This document shows, in pieces, positions 67-31,005 of a stretch of DNA of 39,527 bases. Positions within the stretch are counted from its first letter, which is position 1. Each line of letters starts with the position of its first letter. This DNA comes from Scytalidium lignicola (taxonomy: Eukaryota; Ascomycota; Leotiomycetes), in assembly GCA_002812745.2 (NCBI GenBank), contig NCSJ02000374.1:1-39527 (forward strand), written 5' to 3'. A program made the position numbers and the translations under genes. The notes under the pieces were generated by a model that was not told the DNA's origin, made no database searches, and saw nothing but the letters and a program-made list of their open reading frames with translations.

Positions 67-85
67 ATATCTCCTCCCTTCTAAG
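67..85 (-). other. polypurine tract of element A
   Basis: On the minus strand, bases 82-67 read AGAAGGGAGGAGATAT and abut the TGTCAGG start of the 3' LTR. A purine-rich tract directly upstream of the 3' LTR is the usual plus-strand DNA primer of LTR retrotransposons. Confidence 0.8.
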
Positions 86-1058
86 CTCCTGTCCTCAGGA
101 GCTACTGTCGAACCACCCGCTAAGATGCGGCGACGGAACGTAGCATTCTCCCATTTTACAATTAGACTCTAGACAAAGAGCGCTAAACTTAGCACTCCCG
201 GCCTTAGCGCCTTGGTGTATTTGTCGTTTCGGCAAACACAAAACACCTCTCAGTATTGACCTCACAGTGAAGCTCTAGCAAACCTCCTGCTAGGCTCTGG
301 AGATCTTTCTTTGTTCTTTCAATTCAACATTGCAAGCCACAGTGGGGTCAACAGTCGAACGTCTTGCTCTTATTGCAAACTTCCTTTCTAGACTGTAACT
401 TGCTCGCAGCTAAGTAGCCGCGAATAACACTAAGCTTTGCAGCGAGGATGCTATTGCTCTTGTTCTTTCAACGCAGCTTCATTGTGCCAAATATATCTAT
501 TGAGAAAAGCCTCAATAGCAATATTCTCTGAACCTCAGGCCACCGCATACGTCTATTTAAGTAGGTGTTCTCTCCTTCGATTCTACTTCTTTTTCCAAGC
601 ATCAACTGACGATCGTTAGTACTACCTTTCTTTTTGAAGAACTCCACTGCGTTCTCATGGCTTTCTACTAGCATAGCTCTTGCTAGGCTGTAGCTTTCTC
701 GTTGTCCTTCCTTCTATCACACTTCCTCTTCTTTCACTTTCGTTCGTCGAGATTCCCCAAGCAGAATTGTCTTTTGTTGAGCTACAGCTCACTCTCTGCT
801 ATACTCCTCCTTGATCTTCTAATTCAGCTTGTTTTCCCACCTTCACCTTTGTTCAGTTATTACTTCTTTTCTCCAGGAATTACATAGTAGAATTGTCTCT
901 TGCTGAGCTACAGCTCGCTCTCTGCTACACTCTTTCTTGATTCTCCAATTCAGCTTGCCTTGCATCTTTCACTTAGCTCTAGGATATCTTTTCTTTCTTC
1001 TTATACTCTTGCTTGGCTCTAGTTATAACACTTGTTAACTTCCTGCTAAGCTCTTGCG
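86..1058 (+). promoter_or_regulatory. non-coding 3' region of A; likely promoter and leader of the antisense gene
   Basis: No convincing coding frame is seen on either strand. The plus strand is rich in C and T, with long CT tracts at 560-730 and 950-1020, as is common upstream of filamentous-fungal start codons. Short motifs of the form GCTAGG, GCTAAC or GTTAGG recur between about 280 and 1980, many resembling branch-point plus acceptor signals (for example GTTAACTTCCTGCTAAG at 1034-1050, just before the ATG at 1059), so a 5'-UTR intron is possible. No TATA box could be assigned with confidence. Confidence 0.4.
763..957 (+). repeat. 69 bp direct repeat pair
   Basis: Bases 763-831 and 889-957 are two diverged copies of the same sequence, each beginning AGAATTGTCT and ending in CAGCTTG, with a 57 bp spacer. 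They lie upstream of the antisense gene inside element A. Most differences are transitions. Confidence 0.8.
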
Positions 1059-1855
1059 ATGGCACCAGTAAACGCTGAACCCTTTGTTCTTATTGATAGA
1101 GAAGTACTATGTCAACGATGTCTTTATAGCTTGTCTAGGTGGAAAGCTGGTGTTCTACAATAATGTGCAGATGATACCAGTAAGTCATGACTATTGTTGT
1201 ATAACTGCTTTGTTGCTGTTATGCAATTGCTTGGCTAATGTTCTGTAGGCCAATCTTCAAAATGTTCATACTGTAAGCAGAACAATAAGGCTTGTCTTCT
1301 GGTAAGTATATTTTTTCTTCTTTGTTCACTCCTGTGAACTGATGGCTAGTCACTTGCTAACCTCCTGTTAGCCAACTGGTTTGTTAAAGGCGTGAAGCAA
1401 AGCATTCTATACTGCCATTATCATGTGTAACGGCATTCCTGACGTAAGTTTCGATGTAATGGTTATTGCTAGTGCTAGACTCTTGTTAACCTGGTGCTAG
1501 GATAATGTCAAGGTAGCATAGGTGGCCATTTCGAAAAGCCTTCAATTTATTAAGAACTCCAAAAGTATGCCTTCCTTATATCTTCAAGAACTCAAGCAAG
1601 AAGAGTCGGCCGAGCAGAAAGAGAGAAGTATCCTAGTATTAGAGTCGTTAGGTCGTTCATTGGAGAAGATGTCTAAGGATGTGGCAAGTCTCTCTAAAGA
1701 AGTGGAAGGTCTTCGTACAGATTATAATAGAGTGGTGAGTTACTTGCATGGCTATTGCTAGGTGAGTGTTAATCAGAGGATAGCATCCTGAGGTAGAAGA
1801 GCCCTTTGATAATGAAGGTAATGATGAAGATGATAGCGATGATGGTGGGGCGTAG
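1059..1855 (+). pseudogene. antisense spliced gene inside element A: six-Cys (Zn2Cys6-like) + coiled coil + acidic tail
   Basis: Five exons can be read: 1059-1179, 1249-1301, 1372-1443, 1501-1734 and 1784-1855 (183 residues plus stop). All four introns (69, 70, 57 and 49 bp) are GT-AG, with donors GTAAGT (three) or GTGAGT (one) and a CTAAY or TTAAY branch site near the acceptor; the frame is kept across all of them. Residues 18-56 have cysteines spaced C-X2-C-X14-C-X9-C-X2-C-X6-C, the order of a fungal Zn2Cys6 cluster with one longer loop. Exon 4 encodes a charged heptad-like helix, probably a coiled coil, and exon 5 an acidic tail rich in Asp and Glu. Three in-frame stops interrupt it: TAA 1161-1163, TGA 1393-1395 and TAG 1519-1521, explained by C-to-T change of CAA, CGA and CAG. 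It lies opposite gag-pol, between the chromodomain and the 3' LTR. DNA binding is inferred only; this copy is presumably inactive. Confidence 0.72.
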
Positions 1856-2094: not shown

Positions 2095-5000
2095 TCACTG
2101 TGAGGTAGCTGCTAGCCTTCTAGGTCTTCCCCGCTTTCTCCTAGCTTTGAGGTTGCTCAGATCTAGGTTATGTTTTTCATTATACTCTTCTAGCATTTCA
2201 CCATCATTAATATTTTCTCACGGCTCCTAAGAATCTTCCTCGCTAGTGTATCCCTTCTAGCTAATGAGGTATTTGAAAATTCCTCTTTGCTATCCATGGT
2301 CTAAGATTGCTTCTACTTCATATTCATTGTCTGGGTTGATAGCACTTACCTCCCCTGGTTCTGGGTCGCCGCTCTCTTGCTTCTTGTACAACTTAAGGGC
2401 AGAGATAGGGAAAACAGGGTGGATGCGAATTTACTTTGGCATATCTAGCTCATAGGCAAGGCCATGGCCTCTTACCACCTTCGTTATTTTCCAAGGCCCT
2501 AAGTATTTGTCGGCGAACTTGCGGCAGGGTCGTTGTTGCTTGATATGGGCGGTAGAGACTAATACCCAGTCTCTAAGGTTAAAAGACTTCAGCTCTTGAC
2601 GTTGGTTATACCATTTCTCATAAAGTTTCTGAGCATGTTGAAGTAGACTTGCGATCTTGCTGCGACTCTCTTGCAGCTCTTCAGCTCTCTTAGTTGCTGC
2701 TGGTACCTTAAAAGGAGGCTCTCCGCTGGCTAGCCCTAACTCTGCTGGTCCTTGTGGTTTGTATCCCATGAGGGCCTCCGCAGGGGACGTCTGTATAGCG
2801 GAATACCATGAGGTGTTGTAAACATGCTCTGCTAGGTACAGCTTGGTTGCCTAATCATCCTGAGTGAAGGAGCAGTAGACTTGCAGGTAGTGTTCCAGGT
2901 TCTGGTTTTGATGTTCAGTTTGGCCGTTAGTCTGGGGATGCTATGCAGTACTCATCTGCCTCTTCATTGCTAGGTAGTAACAAAGGGACGCCTAGAACTT
3001 GCTCCTGAATCGGGTATCTCGATCAGATATTACATCCTTAAATAGACCAAACGGTCGGACGATGTGACGTAGTAGCAACTCAGCAACTCTATCAGCACTG
3101 ATACGCTTGGTGGTAGGGATATAAATCGAGTATTTGGTGAACCTGCAGACTACTACTAGAATAGTATCGCATTCCTTACCCTCGAAGGAAGTAGAAGGTG
3201 GTAATTTAGTGATGAAATCCATTGAGATTTCTTCAAAAGGTCTAGTTGGTATCAGCAAAGGTGTTAGCTTGCTGTAAGGTAGATGGTGTCTTGGCTTGGT
3301 TCTTTGGCAAATAGCACAAGTAAAGATGTACTTCTTGACGTCTTTCCGCAAACTATTCCAATGGTAACAGTTAGCTAGTCGTTTCAAAACTTTAGTAATA
3401 CCTAGATGTCCGCTAGTAGGAGCATTATGGAAAGCATCTAGTAATTCAATCTTTAATGGGTGGTTATCAGGGATGTAGACATGTCCTCGATACCTCAGAA
3501 GCTCATCGTCTCCTAATGCCCAGAGGTTACGCCTTGAGACTCTAGCAATGGATCGTTTGCTATGTCGTTGCTTCCATTCTTCGTTGACAACAAAAGCGTC
3601 CTTCTGCTGTGCCTTACGAATAACATCTGCAAAGCTAGGTAACAAGTCCTCTGGCGCTGTTGCGGCTTCGGCCCTTCTAGCTTGCGCCGAAAGAACATAC
3701 GATTTGCGACTCGTAGCTTTAACAGTAGCATTATCCTGGAAAGACATAATGCTCTGAGCACCTTCAAGTTCAGTTGCCGCAGAGCTGTTAGGCTCTTGCG
3801 ACCGACCAGCAAGGTCCTGACCGTCTGGCAAAACGAGTTCAGTTGTCAGGGAATCTACTTCCTTTGACTGGTCAACAAGACCCTGACCTAACAAGCTCGC
3901 AGGTTCCTCACTGCCTACATTCGGCGTCTGTGAGAACCTACTAAGAAAACTCGGCAACAACTCCTGACATGCTGCTACAGCGCCAGTCGTATCTCGCAGA
4001 TCAGGTCTTCTCGACAACCCATCAGCAAGGTTCTGGGAGCCTGGTCTATACTCAATCTTAAAATCATATCTAGACAATTCTTGTAACCAATGAGCTTGCC
4101 TGCTGTTCAGCTGTGGCTTAGAAGCGAGGTAGCGATGGTTTAAGTGGTCAGTCAAAACTTTAACAGGGTATTGTACATACGACAAGTAATGTCTCCATGT
4201 CCTGAAAGCCTCTACGATAGCTAGCAACTCAGCATCTGGGGTGCTGTAGCGTAGCTCAGCCCCTTTCAACTTCTTCGACATGTATGCAACAGGGTGCCAG
4301 TGCCCTTCCTACAATTGGGTCATAATCATGCCAACCGCAAAATCCGAAGCATTTGTCTCCAACCTGGTAGGTAGTTTCGGGTTATAATGACGTAGTAGTG
4401 GAGCAGTTGTGAACAAGACATGCATCTTCGTGAATGCTTCTCGTTGCAGGAGAGTTAGCTGGAAGGTCGACGGGTGTCCCTTCTTCAGCGTATCTGTTAA
4501 TGGTGTAGCAACCTTTGAATAACCTTTGATAAACTGGCGATAAAACCCAGTGAAGCCAAGAAAGATCTGCATGTCTTTTACGCTTCTAGGTTCTGGTTAC
4601 TCAACAATAGTTATAACACGTTCTTTCTCCATGCTCGTGCCTTCAGGGATAATCACAAAGCTTAAAAAGGTGACTGTTTGAGAATGGAATGTACATTTCT
4701 CTAGGTTTGCATAAAGGCCTTATTGTTGTAACCTAGCTAGTACATCGTGAACAGTTTGCACATGTGACTCCTCGTCCTCTGTGTAAATTAAGATATTATC
4801 AAGGTATACAATGCAGATGACGTCGACTAAACCTGTTAGTGCTTGGTTGATATATGTCTGGAAGGTAGTTAGTGCATTCGAAAGTCTGAATAGCATGACA
4901 AGATATTCAAAGTGTCCATACTTAGTTTTGAACGCTGTCTTCTACTCATCTCCCTTGTGAATGCGTATCCAGTGGTAAGCATCTTTCAAATCCAACTTAG

Positions 5001-7092
5001 TAAAGTATTTAGCCTTAGATAATCGACCAATGATTTCTGAAATTAAGGGTAATGCAGTGTAGTTTTTCTTAGTAATCTTGTTCAGTCCTTGGTAGTCAAT
5101 GCAAAGTCGTAGCTTGCCTCCTGGCTTGGGTACGAACAATATAAGAGCTCCTGCTGGACTGATCAAGGGTCGGATCTATCCCTTCTGTATAGCAGCTTCC
5201 AAGTAGTCATGAAGTACTGCAAGCTCATCTTCGGTTAAGGCATAAATAAGTCCTCAAGGTGGAGTCTGTCCTTCTTCTAGGTCGATGTGATGCTCTAAAG
5301 AGGTATGAGGGAGCAGAATTCTAGCTAAGTCTGTATTAAAGACATTCAAGTAATCATCATATTCTGATAGTATGACAAGTTGCATTCTACCAGCTTCCTC
5401 GCTAGTATCCTCCTGCGTATCTGAGGGAGTAGGGATTGTTCCAACCAAAACCACAGTACACTTAACTGCATAACTAGCTTTTCGAAGTTGTCTTTTTGTA
5501 ATGATCAGTGATAAGTGCTACTCTTGGAGAGGAAATACCTAAGTGTCTTCTTTGTAATAGATAACTCACAGCTTTACATCGTCATGCCATGGCTTTCCTA
5601 ATACAATTTCATATCTATTAGACTTAATTACCACGAAGTTGTAGTGCTCCATCCTCTCAAGTCCTTAGCTATTAGTAATACGAGTTACAATATCCAAAGT
5701 TCCATAGGTAGGAACGTTTTGTCCGTAAAGTTGTCCTACTGTTAGGCACTAGCTAACCTCCTTCATTGCTTCGTCTGACAAGAGGCGACGATGTACAATA
5801 TTCAAATCTGACCTTGTATCTAATAAGGCTGTCCTCGTTACCTATTTCCTTTCAAGTTGGAGAGAAACTCTTGCTTCTAGCCATCCTGAAAGGTGTTTGT
5901 CTTCCTATTGGGCAGCTGTTACTCTCCTACCTAATAGCGTGGTATTCACATCGGATGTCTGAGGGCAACTACTAGCATAGTGGCCTAATTTCTTACACTG
6001 ATAGCATTGGACCTCAGAAAGCAGCGGTCTAGCAGTTCCTCCTCTCTTTGCTGCTGGTTGGTCGCTAGGAGGGATGGCATTGACAGTCGTTGCTTTTTGT
6101 GCTGAAGGAGTCTGGTTTGCTTGAGACATGCTTGAAGTCTCACTCGTCTGACTCATTCGTCCGCCTTGGTTTCCTAGCTGATTGGTCACAACTACACTTC
6201 CTGTCGCGATGCCTCTTCCCTGGGTTGCAATCAACGTTTCAGCCCTTCGTGTCGCACTGATCAGCTTCGTCCTAGTGGTTGGTATGCCTTGAGACACAAT
6301 TTGCTTTCTCAACTCCGGTCGAAGTTTGTCCAAGAGGCTACACATCCGATACCCCTCAGGTAGGTGCTTTGGTAATTCCGACTCAATATTCTCGTAATTG
6401 TCCAGGAAAGAATTGAATTTCTGGTCTGGTTTCTGTTCAAGGTGATGTAGCTTCGTGACAGCTTCGAAGGTGCGGGTAGGGCTATCTGAGATGTTACTCT
6501 TCAAGAATTCCTCCATTTCGTCCCAACGGATGCGGTCATAACGATTTTGCCAGGTGTCCATAACATAAGTGATCCAGCGTCTTTTGATGGTGCCTTCCAG
6601 CGTACTACCAGCGTACATAACTCTTTGAAGCTCAGTGCTCAATTCCTGGATTGTAGCAAATCAGGAGTGTAATTCGAAGAGGAAAGTATGGAGTTCATTC
6701 CAATTAGTCCCCTTGTATTTCAAGGCAGGGAGCTGCAATTTCCCCCAAATCTCGTTGCTAGGTTGTTGGTAGGGTTCAGCATGGCGATTTGTCCTAATAG
6801 CTGGTGCATCCTATGCAGAATCATAAATAGGAACTTCTCCCCTCTTAAGAGCTTGTAAGTAAGTTCTCTTCTTTTCAAGGCGGTCCTGTTGCTGCCTAGC
6901 TGCGATTCTCCTGTCTAGCTCTTCCTCCGACAATGAAACAAAACTCCTCGAAATGGGTGCTGGAGGAGAAGGCAAAGGTGGATCAGGCAACGGTGACTCC
7001 TCTTGTTGTAGTGTTGCTGAGCCGGTAGAGGGGAACTGCGACCCTTCTGCTTCTCCTTGTTGTGAAGCTTGAGTTCGACGGGTCTCAACCAT
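2095..7092 (-). pseudogene. gag-pol polyprotein of element A, one frame with RIP nonsense codons
   Basis: From the ATG at 7092 to the TGA at 2097-2095 there is a single uninterrupted frame of 1665 codons apart from nonsense codons; no frameshift was found. In order: Gag with zinc knuckle C-X2-C-X4-H-X4-C near 6010-5970; protease with a DTRS motif in place of DTGS near 5810; RT with YLDN at 4806-4795 instead of YLDD; FLGFTGFYRQFI after it; RNase H around 4450-4050; integrase with an HHCC finger and catalytic Asp, Asp, Glu between about 3450 and 2900; GPY/F-like module; chromodomain about 2370-2210; and a C-terminal RGRP AT-hook-like motif. Most stops are TAG where the family has Trp (for example 6808-6810, 4939-4941, 4306-4308, 2989-2991 and two in the chromodomain), which is CCA to CTA on the plus strand, a CpA-type RIP change. 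Several Trp codons survive, so the mutation is light. Confidence 0.92.
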
Positions 7093-7133
7093 CCTGATTC
7101 TCAACGGTCCACGTGCCCTTTGTTGGGAGAGAG

Positions 7134-7141
7134 AGATCAAT
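7134..7141 (-). other. candidate self-priming primer-binding site of element A
   Basis: One base inside the 5' LTR the minus strand reads ATTGATCT. It is fully complementary to AGATCAAT at 7280-7273 inside the LTR, about 41 bases after the TATA box, close to where the transcript should begin. No match starting TGG, as expected for a tRNA 3' end, is seen. Tf1-type Ty3/Gypsy elements prime from the folded 5' end of their own RNA, and this fits, although eight bases is short. Confidence 0.45.
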
Positions 7142-7142
7142 A

Positions 7143-7407
7143 TGTCAGGGGTATCCGTACGCAGAGTGAAGAGAGACCAGGAGGCTGAAACATAATAGGA
7201 GACTAGCAGTGAGATAGCAGTTGGTTAGGTGTAGATTTGCTCTAAAACTCGGTGCTCTTCTAAAATTACAAGATTGATCTTTGACTCCTGTCAAAGAGAA
7301 GGGGAAAACCCCCTCTTTATAGACGGGAGTCAGCAGCTAAGGAGCGGCTAGGACTCAGACCCCTATCCTTCCTCCCTTCACGTGATTAGCCTACTAAGGA
7401 CCTGACA
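7143..7407 (-). repeat. 5' LTR of element A (265 bp)
   Basis: On the minus strand it begins TGTCAGG at 7407 and ends CCTGACA at 7143, a perfect 7 bp terminal inverted repeat with canonical TG...CA ends. A TATAAA box sits at 7321-7316, so transcription should begin near 7290-7280. The RIPped counterpart in copy B is 14906-15172 (267 bp). Confidence 0.93.
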
Positions 7408-9195: not shown

Positions 9196-11150
9196 ATTAT
9201 TTNACAACTTTAAAAGTATACTTTTCTTATATCTTCAAGAACTTAAACAAGAAAAGTCAGTTAAGCAAAAAGAAAGAAATATCCTAACATTAAAGTTATT
9301 AAGTTGTTTATTAAAGAAGGTGTTTAAGGATATAATAAGTCTCTTTAAAAAGTNAAAAAGTCTTCACACAAATTATAATAGAATAATAAGTTACTTATAT
9401 AATTGTTGTTAAGTAAATATTAATCAAAGGATAATATCCTAAGGTAAAAGAGCTCTTTAATAATAAAAGTAATAATAGAGATAATAATAATGATAACAAG
9501 ATGTAACTCTTGTTCTTCTCTTGCTTATCCTTTATAAGGTTAAAACTTAAGTATCTGGTTTCTTTCTTTGTTTACCTTGTAAAGTTGAAGTTAGTCTTTT
9601 ACTTAATTAATGTTAAGTTAATGTTAAGTTCTTAGTTAAATGTATTTTAGATAAATTTAAACCATTGTCTTATAATGTTTTCTTTCTTATAATTATATTC
9701 TATGTTATACTTTGTGAAAAATTACTTAAAGTACATTAATCACCTTCATTATAAAGTAATTATTAACCTTCTAAGTCTTCTTTACTTTCTCTTAACTTTA
9801 AGGTTACTTAAATCTAAGTTATGTTTCTTATTATACTCTTTTAACATTTTATCATCATTAATATTTTCTTACAACTCTTAAGAATCTTCTTTATTAGTAT
9901 ATCCTTTTTAGTTAATAAGGTATTTGAAAATTCCTTTTTGTTATCTATAGTCTAAGATTACTTTCACTTCATATTCATTGTCTAGGTTAATAATACTTAT
10001 CTCCTTTGGTTTTAAGTTATTATTCTCTTGTTTCTTGTACAATTTAAGGGTAAAGATAAGGAAAACAAAGTAAATGTAAATTTACTTTAACATATCTAGC
10101 TTATAAGCAAGATCATAATCTCTTATTACCTTTATTATTTTCTAAAGCCTTAAGTATTTATTAACAAACTTATAACAAGGTTATTATTACTTAATATAAG
10201 TAATAAAGATTAATACTTAGTCTTTAAGGTTAAAAGACTTTAATACTTAATGTTAGTTATACTATTTTTCATAAAGTTTCTAAGTATATTAAAGTAAACT
10301 TATAATCTTGTTATAATTCTCTTATAATTCTTTAACTCTCTTAGTTGTTGTTAATACCTTAAAAGGAAGCTTTTTACTGACTAGCCTTAACTTTATTAGT
10401 CTTTATAATTTATATCTTATAAGAGCTTTTATAAAGGACATCTGTATAGTAGAATGTTATAAGATATTGTAAATATACTTTGTTAAGTATAACTTAATTG
10501 TCTAATTATCTTAAGTAAAGGAGTAATAAACTTGTAAGTAATATTCTAAGTTCTAGTTTTAACATTCAATTTAGTTATTAATCTAAGGATGTTATATAAT
10601 ACTTATTTGCNTTTTTTATTGTTAAGTAATAATAAAAGGATATTTAGAACTTACTCTTGAATCAAGTATCTTGATCAGATATTATATTCTTAAATGAACT
10701 AAATGGTTAGACAATATAATATAACAATAACTTAACAACTTTATTAACATTAATATGCTGGATGATGAGGATATAAATTAAGTACTTAGTAAACTTGTAA
10801 ATTATTATTAAAATAATATCATATTCTTTATCCTTAAAGGAAGTAGAAGATAATAATTTAATAATGAAATCTATTAAGATTTCTTCAAAAAGTCTAGTTA
10901 GTATTAGTAAAGGTATTAGTTTACTGTAAGGTAAATAGTGTTTTAGCTTAGTTCTTTAACAAATAATATAAGTAAAGATATACTTCTTAATGTCTTTTCA
11001 TAAACTATTCTAATAATAACAATTAACTAACTATTTTAAAACTTTAATAATATTTAAATGTTTGTTAATAAGAGTATTATAGAAAGTATTTAGTAATTTA
11101 ATCTTTAATAAGTAATTATTAAGGATATAAACATATCCTTAATACCTTAA

Positions 11151-14905: not shown

Positions 14906-15172
14906 TGTTAAGGTTGTTCATATGTAAAGTAAAGAAAGACTAGGAAGTTAAAACATAATAAGAGATTAACAATGTAATAACAGTTGGTTAAGTGTAGATT
15001 TACTTTAAAACTCAGTATTCTCTTAAAAGTACAAGATTAATCTTTAACTCTTGTCAAAGAGAAGAGGAAAACCCCTTCTTTATAAACAAGAATCAACAGT
15101 TAAAGAACAGTTAGGACTCAGACCTTAATCCTTTTCACCCCTTCACATGATTAGCACATTAAGACCTTAACA
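14906..15172 (-). repeat. 5' LTR of copy B (RIPped)
   Basis: It aligns end to end with 7143-7407. Both former TGTCAGG termini are recognisable as TGTTAAGG (14906-14913) and CCTTAACA (15165-15172). The candidate priming site and TATA region are also recognisable but mutated. Confidence 0.88.
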
Positions 15173-17990
15173 TATACTTAGATGATATTCTTATTTTCTT
15201 TTAAAGTAAAGAAGATTATAAGTAACATATATGATAAATCCTTAACAAGTTATACAAATACTAACTATTTGCAAACTTGTTTAAATACGAATTTCATATA
15301 AAAACAGTTAAATTCTTAGAATATATTATTAGCTTAAACAAGATCTTGATAAAGTAAAGCTGAGTAAAAACTGTTAAAGAATAACTTATACTTAAGTTAT
15401 ATAAAGATATTTAAATATTCTTAGGATTTACCAATTTTTATAAAAGATTTATTAAAAATTATTCAAAAATTATAATAAGTTTTATAAACTTATTTAAAGG
15501 AATAAAGAAGGGAAAGAAGATNAAAAGCTTTTGAATTTTTAAAGATAATACNAAAAAGTGTTTGAATAATTAAAGATAACCTTTTTATTAATACTAGTTT
15601 TAATATATTATATACTAAGACTACTAATTATACTTGAAACAAATGCATTTAAATTTGTAATAGAGGAAGTATTGTCTTAACTTATAATTAGTCTTATAAG
15701 AGTAGTATAACATTTTATAACCTTTTACTTAAAGAAATTAGACTTAATTTAATAGGCTTATAAGATATACAACTAAGAATTATTAGTTATTATTTTAGCT
15801 TTTAACTAATAAAAGTACTATTTAGTATATATTTTAACATTAATTATTATTAAAATAAATTATAATAATTTAAAAAAAGTTTATAAATAAAAAGAAACTG
15901 AATAGTAAACAAGTATATTAAATCCAGAAACTAGTAGAATTTGATTTTAGGATTAAATATAAGCTAAGGAAAAACAACTTTACAAACAGCTTATTAAAAT
16001 GTTTAAACTATAAGTTACAATCAGATAAAGTAATAAGAGACTTAATATTTACTTTAAAAGAAAAGTTATAGTATATTTTTAGTTTATATGTAGAAAATGT
16101 AGTTAAATAGTATAAAAACATCTTAATTAATAAAGTATTAGATTTAGAAAAATCCTTAAAAGGTAAGAACTTTAAGTTTAGTTAATTGTTAGAACTTATA
16201 CAGTTATAAGCAGTTTTAGACTAAACAAGATGTTTAAAGGTTATAAGTATATATAACATAATTATAAAGCTTAATTTTATTACTAAAACTAGTAATTGTA
16301 AATGCTTTGTTTTATAAGTATTAGCCTAAAGTATTAAAGTGTTCAAAAAAAACAAAAAAAACTTTTAACCTAGTTAATAATTAATTTAATCTAGAATTTA
16401 TAACAAGAGAATACTTTTATCTATGAAGAAAAGTAAGAATTAATTGGAAAAGGAAAGAATAAGGCTAAAGTTACTTAAAAGAAGTTTAAACATTATTAAA
16501 ATAACAATTCTCAAAGTAGATTAATCTTTAAGAATAGCTTAGTAAATGGAGAGAATGCTAAGAATAGTAAACTTCAAGAATAAACATTTNAAAAAGAAAG
16601 TATAAAGTATAAATAATATTAACTTATTAAAGTACAAAAATAAAATTTATATACTTAAGGATAAAATAGTCAAGACTAAGATTTTAACAATAAATTATAA
16701 TAATAAGATTATAAAACACTTAAGAGTAATTAAAACTTTAGAATTGTTAAAGTNAAAAATACTTTTAGAATAGTATACNAAAAAGATATAAAACATTAAG
16801 TCAAAACTTATATAATATACTAATAAGCAACAATAAGAAAGTACTGATTATATAGATTACTTGTATTACTTTTATAGTTATAAGCTTTATAAAAGAAGAT
16901 ATTAATAGACTTTATTATAAACTTACTATTAAACAAGTAAAATAATATAGCTTATAATTTGTACTTTATAATCTTAAACAGATATATTAAAGTAGTATAA
17001 TATATTTTGTATAAGAAAACAATTATAACTTTAAAACTAGTAAAGCTTTTTATATAATATATAATAAAAGACTTTAAAATATTAAAAAGCATTATATCAA
17101 ATAAAAGTTTTTAATTTATAAGCAAATTTTAGAACTTTTTATGTTTTTACTTATAAGTGTGCAAAAAGCTATTAATAGTATTTTACTTTTAAACAAACAA
17201 GCAAATAGAGGTTTAGAATTAAATTTTAGAATATTACCTTTAAGTGTTTACAAATTATAAATAAAATAATTAAATTTCAAAGTTAATGTTAGTAAAATTT
17301 ACTTATAATAATAATGTTTACTTTATAACAAAAGTAATTTTCTTTTATGTTTTATATAAATTCTACTTNAAAAATCATTATAAACGTTAGTAAAGAGGAG
17401 GAAGNAAAAGAAAGTAATNAAAAGTATAAAAAACAAATTTAAGCATTGTAAAAAAAAAAAAGTATTACAATAATATTAAGCTTATACTATTAAAGTATAG
17501 NAAAAGGTTTTATAATAAAAAAACGAAAATCTATAAGCTTTAAAATAAAAGATGAAGTTATGTTATTAACAAAGAATTTACAATAACAAAGACTTAATAA
17601 AAAGTTGTTTAACTAATATATTAAACCTTTAAAAATAATTAGAATATTTAGTAATAGTTTATTTTATAAAGTAGAATTACCTTTAAGTTATAAGATATAT
17701 TTTGTATTTTATGTTTTCTTATTAAAACTATACTATCAGAAAGCTAGTATAATGCTAAATATAATGCTAGAACTAATTGATAAAGAAGAAGAATAAGAAG
17801 TGAAGATTATTTTAGACTATAAAGATAAAGTTTCAAAAAAGCAATACTTAGTAAGATAAAAAGGATTTTCCTTAGCTAATAATAGTTAAGAGTTAATAAA
17901 ACACTTAAAGAACACATAAAAAGAAATTGAAGAATATACAAGAAAAGCAAGATTAATATTAAAATAATTACATAATAATAAAAAAGTAAA
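15173..17990 (+). pseudogene. chromovirus pol fragment G (RT to chromodomain), heavily RIPped
   Basis: The plus strand reads YLDDILIF from 15175, followed by recognisable FLGFTNFYKRFIKNYSKI pieces near 15415-15470, then RNase H and integrase remnants. Near 17550-17720 it shows the integrase C-terminal GPY/F-type module (pieces such as KDEVMLLTKNL and YIKPLKIIRIF) and at about 17795-17965 a chromodomain (EVKIILDYKDK, QYLVR, KGFS, then an EIEEY helix) in which both conserved Trp codons are stops. Everything upstream of the RT active site is cut off at the end of LTR B. The sequence differs clearly from the A family. Its 3' LTR is probably 19717-19921. Confidence 0.82.
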
Positions 17991-19070
17991 AGAAGATTAA
18001 AAACATAAAGATTATAATTAGAAAAGTCTAATTATGAAAATTAACTAAAAAACATTNAAAAGATCTTTAATAAAAGAGTTAACACATTACTAACTGTTAT
18101 CTTTTACTTTACTATTACTACTTTTATTATTATTTATATTATTACTAAGACTTTTATCATTATTATCTACTTTATCCTTATTATTGTTTTTCTCTTCTAC
18201 TTTTAAGGCAAAGAAGTTAGCTTAAAAGACACATTAACAAGTATAAAGTTAAAAAAAGAAATAACTTATATTAAAGTACAGAATATTAATAACTATACAT
18301 AATCTAATCTCCTTAGTAGTTCGAAATTAGCTTATTATACTATATTATACTTTCTAATGTNAAAAAAAGCTTTACNTTTTTTTATATATTACTTTTAAGC
18401 TACTTTTAAATGAAAAATAAGAATTGCTTTAATAGGAGAACTAGTAATAGCTTGAGTAAGTTTAGTTTGCAGAGTTAATAGCTTATTAAGACAAGTAAAC
18501 ATAACTTGAAGGATAAGAAGACATTTTTTACTTTTTGTTAAATACTTATTATAATAAAAGTTACTTACTTTCTTTTTGCACTTTAGATTAAACTTAGTAT
18601 AAAGTTACTTTGAATAATACAAATAACAATATTAAAATAATTTTTTAAAGGCCTTTAAGACTTAATAATAATAATAACATACAATACAAACAAAGTTATA
18701 ATTAGAATAATTAATAAAGGAAATCAAATGTTAAGGGCAAGAAAAAACTAGAATAGAATATATTAAGAATAGNAAAAAGGCTAAATNAAAAGAATGCTTA
18801 TCAATATCTTAACAGAGAAAATGTAATGAATATAAACTAATAATATAAAACATAAGTATTATAATAGTAATAATTATAATAGTAGTAGAAGAAGATAACG
18901 AAGAAAGAAGAAAGAAAGAAAAGAAGAAGAAGGAAATATTTATAAACATATCAAAGAAGTATAATAATAATAGATTAAACAAATCAAACAATTGATTTGA
19001 AGAATTGATTTTAATCTGAAATTATTATCTTGTTAATAAAGTAACATTTCCTTGTTAATATTATAACAAT
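17991..19070. other. AT-rich 3' region of element G, no gene seen
   Basis: No frame gives a recognisable protein. The stretch has low-complexity TTATTA-type tracts (18095-18200) and a purine-rich tract of GAA/AGA units at about 18885-18940. Its position between the G chromodomain and the candidate G 3' LTR suggests that it is that element's 3' non-coding region. Confidence 0.5.
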
Positions 19071-19491
19071 GAAATCTTTATTGTAGATTTATAACTTTAA
19101 CAATATTAAAATTTTAGCATTATATTATTATACAAGAGTAATAATGTTTTATATACTAAGAAAATAAAAAATAAAATCTTTATTGTATATTTAAGGCTTT
19201 AATAATATATATAGTAGATATAATATTATTTACTTATTATAATATAACTAATAACATCTTTGTATAAAAGGAAAGACAAAGCTAAGAAAGTTAGAATTGT
19301 TAAAAAGACATTATACAAAAAATCTAAAAGGAGAATCTTTATTGTATATTTAAGGATTAATAATACATATAGCTGATATAATACTACTTACTTATTATAA
19401 TATAATTTAATAACAGCTTTGTAAAGGAAGAAAGATAAAGCTAAGAAAGTTAGAATTGTTAAAAGAATATTATACTAAGAAGATTTAAGAA
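19071..19491. repeat. tandem repeat, ~159 bp period, about 2.6 units
   Basis: Units at 19174-19332 and 19333-19491 each begin AATCTTTATTGTATATTTAAGG and share AAGCTAAGAAAGTTAGAATT near their ends. A shorter diverged unit at 19071-19173 begins GAAATCTTTATTGTAGATTT. The array lies in the 3' region of element G. No coding potential is seen. Confidence 0.72.
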
Positions 19492-19716
19492 GTCAACTTT
19501 AAAATTCTAGAAATNAAAAAGTAAAACTATAGTATACTTTAGTAAAAAAAGTTATAAAGATAAAAGACAAACTTTAGTTAAAACTTTGAATAGGAAAAAA
19601 GTGCAAAAAACAAGTATAAAAAAAAGTTAAACACTATTTATAAGTAAGAAAACTATATTAAGCTTTATCTACTTAAACTACTTTTAAGAACAAGAGTTCT
19701 AAAAAAAAGAAAATGA
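19492..19716 (+). other. AT-rich spacer ending in a purine tract (PPT candidate of G)
   Basis: No gene is seen. The last 16 bases, AAAAAAAAGAAAATGA at 19701-19716, are purine-rich apart from one T and directly precede the TG of the candidate LTR, as a plus-strand primer should. Confidence 0.4.
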
Positions 19717-19921
19717 TGTTAAGAGTTAAGTAATATTAGTATATTAACTCGAAAAAGCTTTAGTTATAATAAGTTACATGAATATACTATGTATATATAT
19801 ATAAGAGCAAAAGGGAAAGTAAAGAGTAAGAGTTAGTTTATATAGAAGTAAACACTTATTATAGCTTACTTATCACTCAATTTGTAATTCATTATCTATT
19901 ACCTGTCTTAGGTTTATAACA
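19717..19921 (+). repeat. candidate 3' LTR of element G (205 bp)
   Basis: It begins TGTTAAGAGTTAAG and ends GGTTTATAACA, giving TG...CA ends with a TGTTA/TAACA inverted pair. A TATATATATATAAG box is near 19790-19803, and a purine tract precedes it. No second copy is in the window, so the boundaries rest on signals alone. Confidence 0.55.
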
Positions 19922-20234
19922 GATAAAGCTTAAATGATTGACTTTACAACTTATAAATATATAACATAATTCTTTATAAAATCAACATATATAATATTAA
20001 AGTTAATATATTTTTATTTAAGCTTCTTATTCTTTAAGCTTTTTAAATAACTATAACTGTATTTAATAAGTATAACTACTTGAAAAAGCTCATCTTCAAC
20101 CATCTCCTCCTCTTCTTCAATAAGTTATACAATTTCCTCAAACATAAAGTTTAATTATAAAAGAAAATTTATATCTTATAAAGTAAAAGATAAAAATAAT
20201 AAAGAATATAAAAAACTAACTTTAATAATAGTTT
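19922..20234. other. AT-rich stretch between LTRs, no recognised gene
   Basis: The minus strand encodes a short acidic run (IEEEEEMVEDEL-like, near 20095-20130) surrounded by stops. It may be internal sequence of an element that uses LTR I, or chance in a purine-rich tract. Nothing else can be supported. Confidence 0.3.
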
Positions 20235-20555
20235 TATTATAAAACCCTTAAACATTAATATATAATGTAAGTTTAGTCACTTTATAAGTTTATTTATGGA
20301 ATAAGCTGACTAAAGTTTTCTAAAGTAATAAGTATATTATAAAGTTGTAACTTAAGTTGAATATAAGGTTTCTAATTAAAGCTTAAAGAGTATATTCTTA
20401 TATAAACATTTGTAATTCTATTTATATAAACTAGTATAAACTTATATAGTTATATACCCTTATATACCTTTATATACTAAGACTTGTTATATAACTTAAT
20501 ACTTGTTAATCTACTAACATTTTATAAGTTATTCTTTTAATTTATTAAATTGTGT
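20235..20555 (-). repeat. LTR I, minus orientation, related to LTR H
   Basis: The reverse complement of about 20235-20530 matches 33880-34190 over most of its length, for example the block around TAAAGCTTTAATTA and the terminal TAAGGGTTTT. The left edge is set by the RIPped terminus GGGTTTTATAATA (GGGTTTTGTAACA in LTR H). The right edge near 20555 is approximate because the first bases are too diverged. Confidence 0.65.
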
Positions 20556-20726
20556 AAATAAGATTTATAATATTATCTTTTTCCTTTTCTAATATTATCT
20601 TAATACTTAACTTATAATATTAAATAATTTTCATTATTCTTTAANTTATACTTCTTATCTATTATGTTATATAACTACTAAACTCACCTTTATAAAGTAG
20701 AAAAGATAAAAACAATAAATTTTAAA

Positions 20727-21067
20727 ATGTTCTCCTTTTGTTATTATTATAAAAAGAACAAGAAATCTTATTATTATTTTCTTGATTCTTTAAAATACTC
20801 TAAATACACTTATTATAATAATTATTATAAACTTCTTAGGCTATCTCTTAAGGAAATCGATTATTACTTTCAAAAAGAGTAATACTTAGAACAAGAAGAA
20901 GAAAAAGCTCTTACTAAAGTCCTTTAACTTAAGAAACTTTGTCATTGCATAAAAAACAATACTTAGCTTATGAATTTTAAAGGTATTTTTACTATAGAAG
21001 AATTAAAAGAAATTNAAAAAAAGAGAAAAGTTAAAAAAGGAAAAGCTAAACTTCTTAGTCTTTATTA
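20727..21067 (+). pseudogene. RIPped Zn2Cys6 + coiled-coil gene beside LTR I
   Basis: From an ATG at 20727 the plus strand reads a Cys and then Tyr residues spaced X2, X6, X8, X2 and X6, exactly a fungal Zn2Cys6 cluster if those Tyr codons (TAT/TAC) were Cys (TGT/TGC) before G-to-A RIP. The first Cys survives at 20739-20741. A charged helix follows with EQEEEKAL and a later FTIEELKEI piece, typical of a coiled coil. In-frame stops are TAA (from CAA or CGA) and TAG, and an N at 21015 may break the frame. The gene is antisense to LTR I and next to it, the same geometry as the antisense gene of element A. Which element it belonged to is not proven; DNA binding is a family inference. Confidence 0.55.
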
Positions 21068-21129
21068 AAAGTTTATTATGTCTTTCTGATAAAAATAAAT
21101 AACATTTTTCAGTTAATCCTTTTATGTTA

Positions 21130-22557
21130 AGTATTAATATCATCAATTTTTACCTGNTTTTATAAGCTTTATTAANTTTTCTTTTCTAAGAATCTTTTTT
21201 AACTAAATTTAATAATAATTTTTTATTATCTTTTTGATGTTCTTTAAATATTTTGTAAATTCCTACAAATTATTTAATTCTGGAAATCCTTTTTATTTAA
21301 CCAAATACTGAATTTTCTTATACTAATATTTATAATCTAAAATTTTCTTAATAACTTATTTTTTGTTAAGNTTTTAACTCAACTTTTATACTTAATATTA
21401 ATAATGTATTCATAAGTACAAGCTTTAGTAATATTATATAGAATACAAGATATACTTGTATTTTCCTAAGTAATTTCAATTTAATTATTATTAGTTTATA
21501 AACTTCTTCAACCTTAAATAGTTTTAATTTTACAAACTTAAGTTTATTATTAAGTTATAATTCTTAGAATATATTATATTTTAAGACAAGTTAAGAACAA
21601 TTAAGGAGAAAACTAAAGCTATTAGAGAATAAGTAATACTTAGAATAGTTAAGGAGTTATAAAGCNTTTTTAGGATTTACGAATTATTATTGAAAATTTG
21701 TATAAAACTATTCAAGAATAATATTATCATTAATTAAGTTAACTAAGAAAGATGTATTTTATAAATGGAAAAAGGAATAACAAGATGTTTTTGACTAAGT
21801 TAAAAAAAGTATTTAAAAAAAGACTAAAGTTTTAAGATTTTTAACTTAAATAAACTTGTTTAAATTAAAAAAAATGTATTAGATTATATTTTAAACATAG
21901 TCTTAAACTAGTAAGATAAGTAAAAAAAAGTAAAAAACTACTTGTATTCTATTCAAGGAAGTTTAACTTAGTAGAATAAAATTATCTTATTTATAATAAA
22001 GAATTATTAGTAATAGTAAATGTGTTAAAGAAATAGATGATATATATAATAAAAGCTAAAGAATAAATTAAAATACTAATAGATTATTAAAATCTAAAGT
22101 ATTTTATAATATTTAAAGAATTAAATATAAGACAAGTTAGATAAGCAAAAACTCTGTTAGAATATAATTTTAAGATTTAACATATTAAAAGGATTAATAA
22201 TAGAAGAGTAAATACTTTAAGCTAAAAACCAGAGTATATGAACAAAGAAGAGTTAAGTTTAAAGTAAGTAGTCTTAACAGATNAAAAAAGGAATTACTTA
22301 TAATCAAAGACAATTAATATTTATATTAACAGTAGTGAATAAAACTTAGATTGACAAAATTTATAATAAATTGGATAATGACAATNAAAAAGAATAAAGA
22401 GTTTTAAGCAAAGAGTAAGTAGTAAGAGTTAATTGATAAACTATAGTATAAAGACAAGAAATTGTATATTCTTGAAAAACTGTTAAAGGAATTCATAATA
22501 GAATAATATACCTTATTACAAAATAAACATTTTAAAGTTGAAAAGACTTATTATAAG
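21130..22557 (+). pseudogene. Ty3/Gypsy RT-RNase H fragment F, heavily RIPped
   Basis: The plus strand shows late RT near 21490-21620 (FLEYIIF, then KTKAIRE), FLGFTNYY from about 21665, a KDVFYKWKKE block near 21745, then RNase H pieces (RVLRFLT-like, YNKELLAIV-like) and an ADALSR-type junction region near 22170-22240. The RT active site and everything upstream are not recognisable; the right end is cut by the Copia LTR at 22558. From about 22400 to 22557 only degraded sequence is seen. It is a different family from A and G by sequence. Confidence 0.75.
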
Positions 22558-30308: not shown

Positions 30309-31005
30309 TAAGGAAAACTTAAAAAGTTAATAGTTACCTTATAATAAGAGTAATCAATTTACTTTAAGTAATTTTTTACAAAGTATAGTACAGAATATAA
30401 TTATAAGAAAGGAAATACTATAAGACAACAGTCTAAATTCATTTAAAATACACTTAGCCAAGAACTTAACACTAACTTAACAGAAGACAAGCCAGAACAA
30501 GAGTAAGAGATTAACTTCAACCTTACAAGGTAAGTAAAGAGAGAAACTGAATGCTTATACTCTAACCTTACAAGGGGTGAACAAAAGAAGAACAAGAGTT
30601 ACATCTTACTATCATTGCTATTATCTTTATTATTATCTTCATTATCAAAAGGCTTTTCTACCTTAAGATGTTATCCTTTAATTAACATTCACCTAACAAT
30701 AGTTATATAAGTAACTTATTACCTTATTATAATTTGTACAAAGACTTTCTACTTCTTTAAAAAGACTTATTATATCCTTAAACATCTTCTTCAATAAACA
30801 ACTTAACAACTTTAATACTAAGATACTTTTCTTTTTCTGCTTAACTGACTTTTCTTACTTGAGTTCTTGAAGACATAAAGAAGGTATACTTTTAAAGTTC
30901 TTAATGAATTAAAGGCTTTTTAAAACAATTATTTATACTACCTTAATATTATCTTAACACTAGGTTAACAAGAGTATTAAATATAATAACTATAAGTCAT
31001 TAGTA

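Follow-up and report, generated by a model that had tools for sequence, protein, structure and literature searches.

How does a gene with four introns come to lie inside an LTR retroelement, and does its product belong to the element or to the fungal host? The question was raised by a window of 39,527 nucleotides from Scytalidium lignicola, which is contig C304 of the assembly searched here (46.85 Mb in 664 contigs). Direct splicing of positions 1059-1855 of the (+) strand joined five exons into 552 nt in a single frame, with GT-AG ends at all four introns (Table 1), and the gag-pol of the surrounding element (element A) runs opposite to it, on the minus strand. The original prediction of five in-frame exons and four introns antisense to gag-pol was thus borne out by the frame, by the splice sites and by the selection described below for a relative of the gene, C20. 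The product, of about 180 residues, has six cysteines with the predicted spacing C-X2-C-X14-C-X9-C-X2-C-X6-C, all of which the window copy shares with C20. A coiled coil follows them, and the tail is acidic. In the window copy, codons 35, 66 and 89 are stops that interrupt the frame.

Table 1. Features of element A, its antisense gene and other remains of the gene in the window. C20 and C410 are solo relatives of the gene elsewhere in the genome; P0001 is the NCBI protein of C20.
Feature	Position	Strand	Basis
Start of 3' LTR of element A, truncated by the contig end	1..66	-	100% repeat of 7342-7407
Pyrimidine-rich leader, presumed promoter and 5'UTR (promoter role inferred)	67..1058	+	Motif matches; recurs at other copies among the matches listed
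Exon 1 (first three Cys)	1059..1179	+	Splicing; aligned in 21 copies and C20
Intron 1, GT-AG, 69 nt	1180..1248	+	Splicing and copy alignment
Exon 2 (last three Cys)	1249..1301	+	Splicing and copy alignment
Intron 2, GT-AG, 70 nt, conserved in C20 and C410	1302..1371	+	Splicing and alignments
Exon 3	1372..1443	+	Splicing and copy alignment
Intron 3, GT-AG, 57 nt, conserved in C20 and C410	1444..1500	+	Splicing and alignments
Exon 4, coiled-coil region	1501..1734	+	Alignment; long helix in P0001 model
Intron 4, GT-AG, 49 nt	1735..1783	+	Splicing and copy alignment
Exon 5, acidic tail and stop	1784..1855	+	Splicing and copy alignment
Pol 3' end, chromodomain-like by eye, broken by stops	2098..2430	-	Pfam, without Chromo
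Broken gag-pol of element A (integrase, RNase H, RT, CCHC knuckle)	2434..7224	-	Pfam, six separate pieces
Part of 5' LTR of element A, repeating 1-66	7342..7407	-	Self-comparison
Antisense gene remains, copy B	9196..9603	+	Sequence matches; RIP index
Antisense gene remains, copy C	30502..30975	-	Sequence matches; RIP index

Element A is bounded by a repeat that is identical at both ends, the copy at 1-66 being truncated by the contig end. Among the pieces of its pol, RVT_1, RT_RNaseH, Integrase_H2C2 and zf-CCHC reached the Pfam cut-offs, SH3_Tf2-1 stayed under its cut-off, and rve was below it in the pieces and at the cut-off in another run. The RT, the RNase H and the integrase zinc domain are thus those at cut-off. 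The chromodomain was recognised by eye; Pfam did not report Chromo in 2098-2430, which is broken into pieces, and it reported none in two further pieces taken from other copies. Judged by eye, element A is likely a chromovirus.

The cysteine pattern had been described as Zn-cluster-like. In fungal Zn2Cys6 regulators, the first half of the cluster is spaced C-X2-C-X6-C. The window protein resembles these regulators in its six Cys, coiled coil, acidic tail and small regulator-like layout, but its first loop is X14 instead of X6 and Pfam Zn_clus gave no match, so that membership of this family was rejected. Neither the window protein nor P0001 matched any Pfam family at cut-off, profile searches of NCBIfam and PDB returned weak unrelated lines only, and a scan of IMG/VR gave eight pattern matches, none of which was confirmed. 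Protein searches, by a method that sees relatives with short exact words and similar length and with uncontrolled coverage of Botrytis, recovered S. lignicola records only. A single-sequence model of P0001 was poor (mean pLDDT 56) except for one long helix at residues 119-157, where block pLDDT reaches 71-84 once residue 121 is passed, which is consistent with the predicted coiled coil; block values in the Cys region (residues 21-60) were 46-65.

The reading frame was compared with two solo relatives. C20, the source of P0001, is a diverged copy with 51% identity in the protein search and has the same Cys spacing, all five exons and four GT-AG introns, with one frame-shifting length difference in exon 4 that is either real or a sequencing error. 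Compared with the window copy, four of the five exon indels of C20 are multiples of three as aligned (with some doubt about the indel that closes exon 5), and neither of the two intron indels is. In-frame pN/pS between the window copy and C20 was 0.35 (bootstrap 0.26-0.46), compared to 0.91 and 1.61 in the shifted frames. The corresponding values were 0.47 (0.37-0.59) against 0.72 (+1 frame; 0.56-0.92) and 1.35 for the window copy and C410, a weaker contrast, and 0.40 against 0.96 and 1.31 for C20 and C410, the whole-gene values for C410 taking in the unrelated ends of its exons 1 and 5. Over exons 2-4, the differences between C20 and C410 amount to 20/109, 4/110 and 62/111 sites at codon positions 1, 2 and 3, respectively. 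The in-frame ratios and the distribution of differences among codon positions indicate that the protein has been under selection in the past; judged from the aligned sequences, this is a real protein gene.

Within the family carried by the element, this signal is absent. A DNA search of the genome with the gene gave at least 41 matches; the window accounts for one of these, a single copy appears as two pieces, and copies B and C of the window are missing from the matches listed. When the window copy was aligned with 20 others (n = 21), none was free of stops. These stops fall at 13 codon positions, each of which is CAA, CAG, CGA or TGG in some other copy, and all 13 fit a C-to-T or G-to-A change; the nonsense codons are as RIP leaves them, in agreement with the original prediction. 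Splice sites are also lost in many copies that are more AT-rich, by the same G-to-A type of change. Of the RIP indices based on dinucleotides, (CpA+TpG)/(ApC+GpT) falls to 0.62-0.92 in 17 of the 21 copies, the other four (the window copy, L009, L010 and L011) having 1.04-1.24, and TpA/ApT was 1.10-1.59 in element copies, overlapping the 0.68-1.45 of solo copies. Exon indels were found in 10 of the 21 copies, and in eight of those they are not multiples of three, single-base lengths being doubtful in this Ion Torrent assembly; among the 84 introns of the alignment there is one indel. The window copy and L009 differ at 17, 19 and 20 of 184 sites at the three codon positions, and such a lack of codon signal within the family is expected if the differences are mostly due to RIP.

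The gene recurs together with the element. When 41 listed pol matches (two being pieces of one copy on C530) were paired with the gene matches listed from the DNA search plus four further ones, a gene match lay at most 2.5 kb away in 36 of the 41, among the matches listed, and two of the five pol matches lacking a nearby gene are at contig ends. Among the matches listed, the gene is a trait of the family. LTR pairs enclose the gene in 12 of 19 loci examined (a set that leaves out L023 and L028), including the truncated 66-nt pair of the window; in the 11 others the LTRs are 227-275 bp long, and six of these 11 pairs are flanked by perfect 5-bp target duplications. Because it is enclosed by LTR pairs with such duplications, the gene travels inside the element, and its presence near 36 of the 41 pol matches listed favours a gene of the element.

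The original prediction knew of no described example of such an arrangement, but examples from Boty elements (Botrytis, Sclerotinia) and from plants are already in print. Boty elements of Botrytis (B. cinerea, with Boty-like ones also in Sclerotinia) are described as having brtn, a gene on the opposite strand, in the stretch that separates pol from the 3' LTR (Zhao et al. 2011, as cited in PMC8365987, PMC4227169 and PMC7264820), Boty-like elements as having a gag-pol with a CHROMO domain (PMC4227169, PMC7264820), and a Monilinia transcript as similar to Pol and BRTN (PMC5987419). Like brtn as described there, the window gene is an extra gene in an LTR element of a Leotiomycete and lies in antisense in that same stretch; the likeness is one of place and orientation in published descriptions, and any homology to BRTN is putative. 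By this analogy, the window gene is probably another member of the brtn kind, with unusual extras. In plants, the antisense ORFs of Grande (gene23), RIRE2, Retand and PvRetro13 are reported in the same position and orientation (PMC7264820, PMC11963269). According to these accounts, GENE23 is nuclear and has its own promoter and TRP28 of Retand is predicted to bind DNA; some of the plant proteins have TRP28 or SMC domains, neither of which was matched in the window protein. The word 'intron' is absent from the available texts of both papers, the first of which recommends that antisense transcripts with splicing be studied. In nuclear rDNA group I introns, homing-endonuclease genes are described that run antisense and contain spliceosomal introns (PMC9548176), likewise an antisense gene with spliceosomal introns in a mobile element, but of another class and with another protein. 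Rotifer LTR elements with captured ORFs (PMC5408684) were set aside, as the available text mentions neither an antisense gene nor an intron. Among the titles listed from the literature searched, which mostly excludes subscription papers, no further fungal case came up and no LTR element with a spliced antisense gene; this speaks only weakly for their absence.

We consider it fairly probable that the window gene is an accessory protein-coding gene of a Boty-like Ty3/Gypsy family of S. lignicola, placed antisense between pol and the 3' LTR and interrupted by four spliceosomal introns. The leader upstream would act as its own promoter and transcribe the antisense gene. Sense genomic RNA would not present the splice sites, so that introns would survive reverse transcription; we propose that they persist in the element because the gene is antisense to the genomic RNA, and the placement would thereby explain how a retroelement keeps introns. 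The protein is predicted to dimerise through its coiled coil and, by analogy with the plant antisense ORF proteins, may act in the nucleus, its target being either transcription of the element or the integration complex. According to PMC7264820, it is not known what the antisense accessory genes of LTR elements do. The present data offer codon-level evidence of selection on the protein itself, and this selection, the conserved exon-intron structure and the solo relatives make both origin (host or element) and function testable. Against an accessory gene of the element we counted that 0/21 copies are open and 8/21 have exon indels out of multiples of three, that no homologue outside S. lignicola was found in the protein searches, that the Cys region matched no family and was poorly modelled, that the frame contrast between the window copy and C410 is the weaker one, and that the gene also occurred apart from the element, in solo copies with no detectable pol.

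These solo copies keep a host origin possible. Loci of 3.0-8.8 kb were fetched for C20, C410, C187, C22 and C11, C19 being known as a match only. The solo copies sit in GC-normal DNA, and in all five fetched loci no sequence of element A outside the gene and its leader was found at E 1e-3. A host gene family comprising these six copies could be ancestral, one member with its introns having been captured in antisense and amplified with the element. C20 has a complete set of exons and GT-AG introns and lies beside a double-bromodomain gene; nothing else in the genome matches its upstream flank, and its divergence from C410 took place under strong coding constraint, all of which would suit a host gene. 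Also near C20 is a 746-residue membrane-type reading frame on which Pfam is silent and which we take to be PRM1. Its downstream flank and one flank of C410 hold short repeats unlike element A. However, no host orthologue was found elsewhere in the protein searches, C20 has the frame-shifting length difference, all exons are kept in C20 alone among the five fetched loci, and C187 carries, with exon 1, 143 bases of element-type leader at 82%, which points to the element as the source. With three taxa, unrooted, behind the comparison of host and element origin, we regard capture from the host as a serious candidate, if on the unlikely side.

The leader attached to exon 1 in C187 would also be accounted for if the solo copies were left over from older related elements or had been domesticated from them. 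C20, which retains all exons and splice sites, would then be a gene of element origin that the host has kept, for instance to restrain the element. This scenario is compatible with an accessory gene of the element, the two not excluding each other; as neither the 8.8 kb fetched around C20 nor the 7.5 kb around C410 showed traces of pol or LTR, we hold it to be unlikely.

The introns carry a signal of their own. In the interiors of introns 2 and 3, with splice sites excluded, differences were 11/73 between the window copy and C410, 25/72 between the window copy and C20 and 20/72 between C20 and C410, whereas third codon positions differed at 62/113, 67/113 and 62/111 sites (Fisher p 4e-8, 0.0015 and 0.0002, respectively; with transversions alone, p 0.004, 0.045 and 0.065). 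This conservation is in part splice signal, and the intron interior goes beyond that account. A motif built from the intron ends of the family had four matches in the window and none in 100 shuffles; as two of the four are the source introns 2 and 3 themselves, only 1032-1049, just 5' of the ATG, and 276-293 are informative. Both resemble the ends of introns 2 and 3, and by this resemblance a further intron in the 5'UTR may end just before the ATG. Genome-wide, the motif gave 30 matches at up to two mismatches in 46.85 Mb (three for the reversed control), and the idea of a genome-wide intron family was dropped, as 29 of the 30 belong by their coordinates to this gene family or its relics. The shorter YTGCTAR occurs six times in 67-2095, a modest excess over shuffles (mean 1.6, maximum 6).

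The motif TTGCTAACCTCCTGCTAG and its variants, present in introns and leader, are nearly confined to the gene family. Tentatively, and with considerable doubt, we suggest that the gene is a mobile regulatory module in which this motif is held more strictly than synonymous sites, perhaps as a binding site for the Cys-rich protein, giving autocontrol of splicing or transcription, and that C20, as a functional copy, may work for the host and possibly to the detriment of the element. The slower divergence of introns than of third codon positions would also fit a role for the antisense RNA alone, through dsRNA or silencing control, with the reading frame incidental, and non-coding antisense roles are discussed for such elements in the available text of PMC7264820; given the strong codon-position signal and in-frame pN/pS of 0.35-0.47, this is very improbable. 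A chance open frame with chance splice sites, to which the three stops of the window copy and the 0/21 open copies might point, is ruled out for practical purposes by the splice sites common to C20, the in-frame selection and the shifted-frame controls.

Within the leader, positions 780-835 and 906-961 form a partial duplication, 126 bases apart, and both match one stretch of the C187 relic. The NCBI gene models of the family, P0002 (on C648) and P0003 (on the window contig), are partial; in P0002 one exon is read in a frame other than the selected one, and the annotation of P0001 reads the start of exon 4 otherwise than in our alignment. A short repeat at about 4597-4674 of L039, in the downstream flank of C20, is present in many copies, frequently two in inverted orientation at a spacing of about 300 bases, and looks like a small inverted-repeat element. 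At 4563-4649 of L040, a repeat of about 85 bases recurs on many contigs, with several matches near contig starts. Elsewhere in the window, GC is very low (0.17-0.20) over 15001-22000, in a genus that is said to be generally without a sexual state, and 19249-19492 contains two direct repeats of 85 bases, 81% alike and 159 bases apart.
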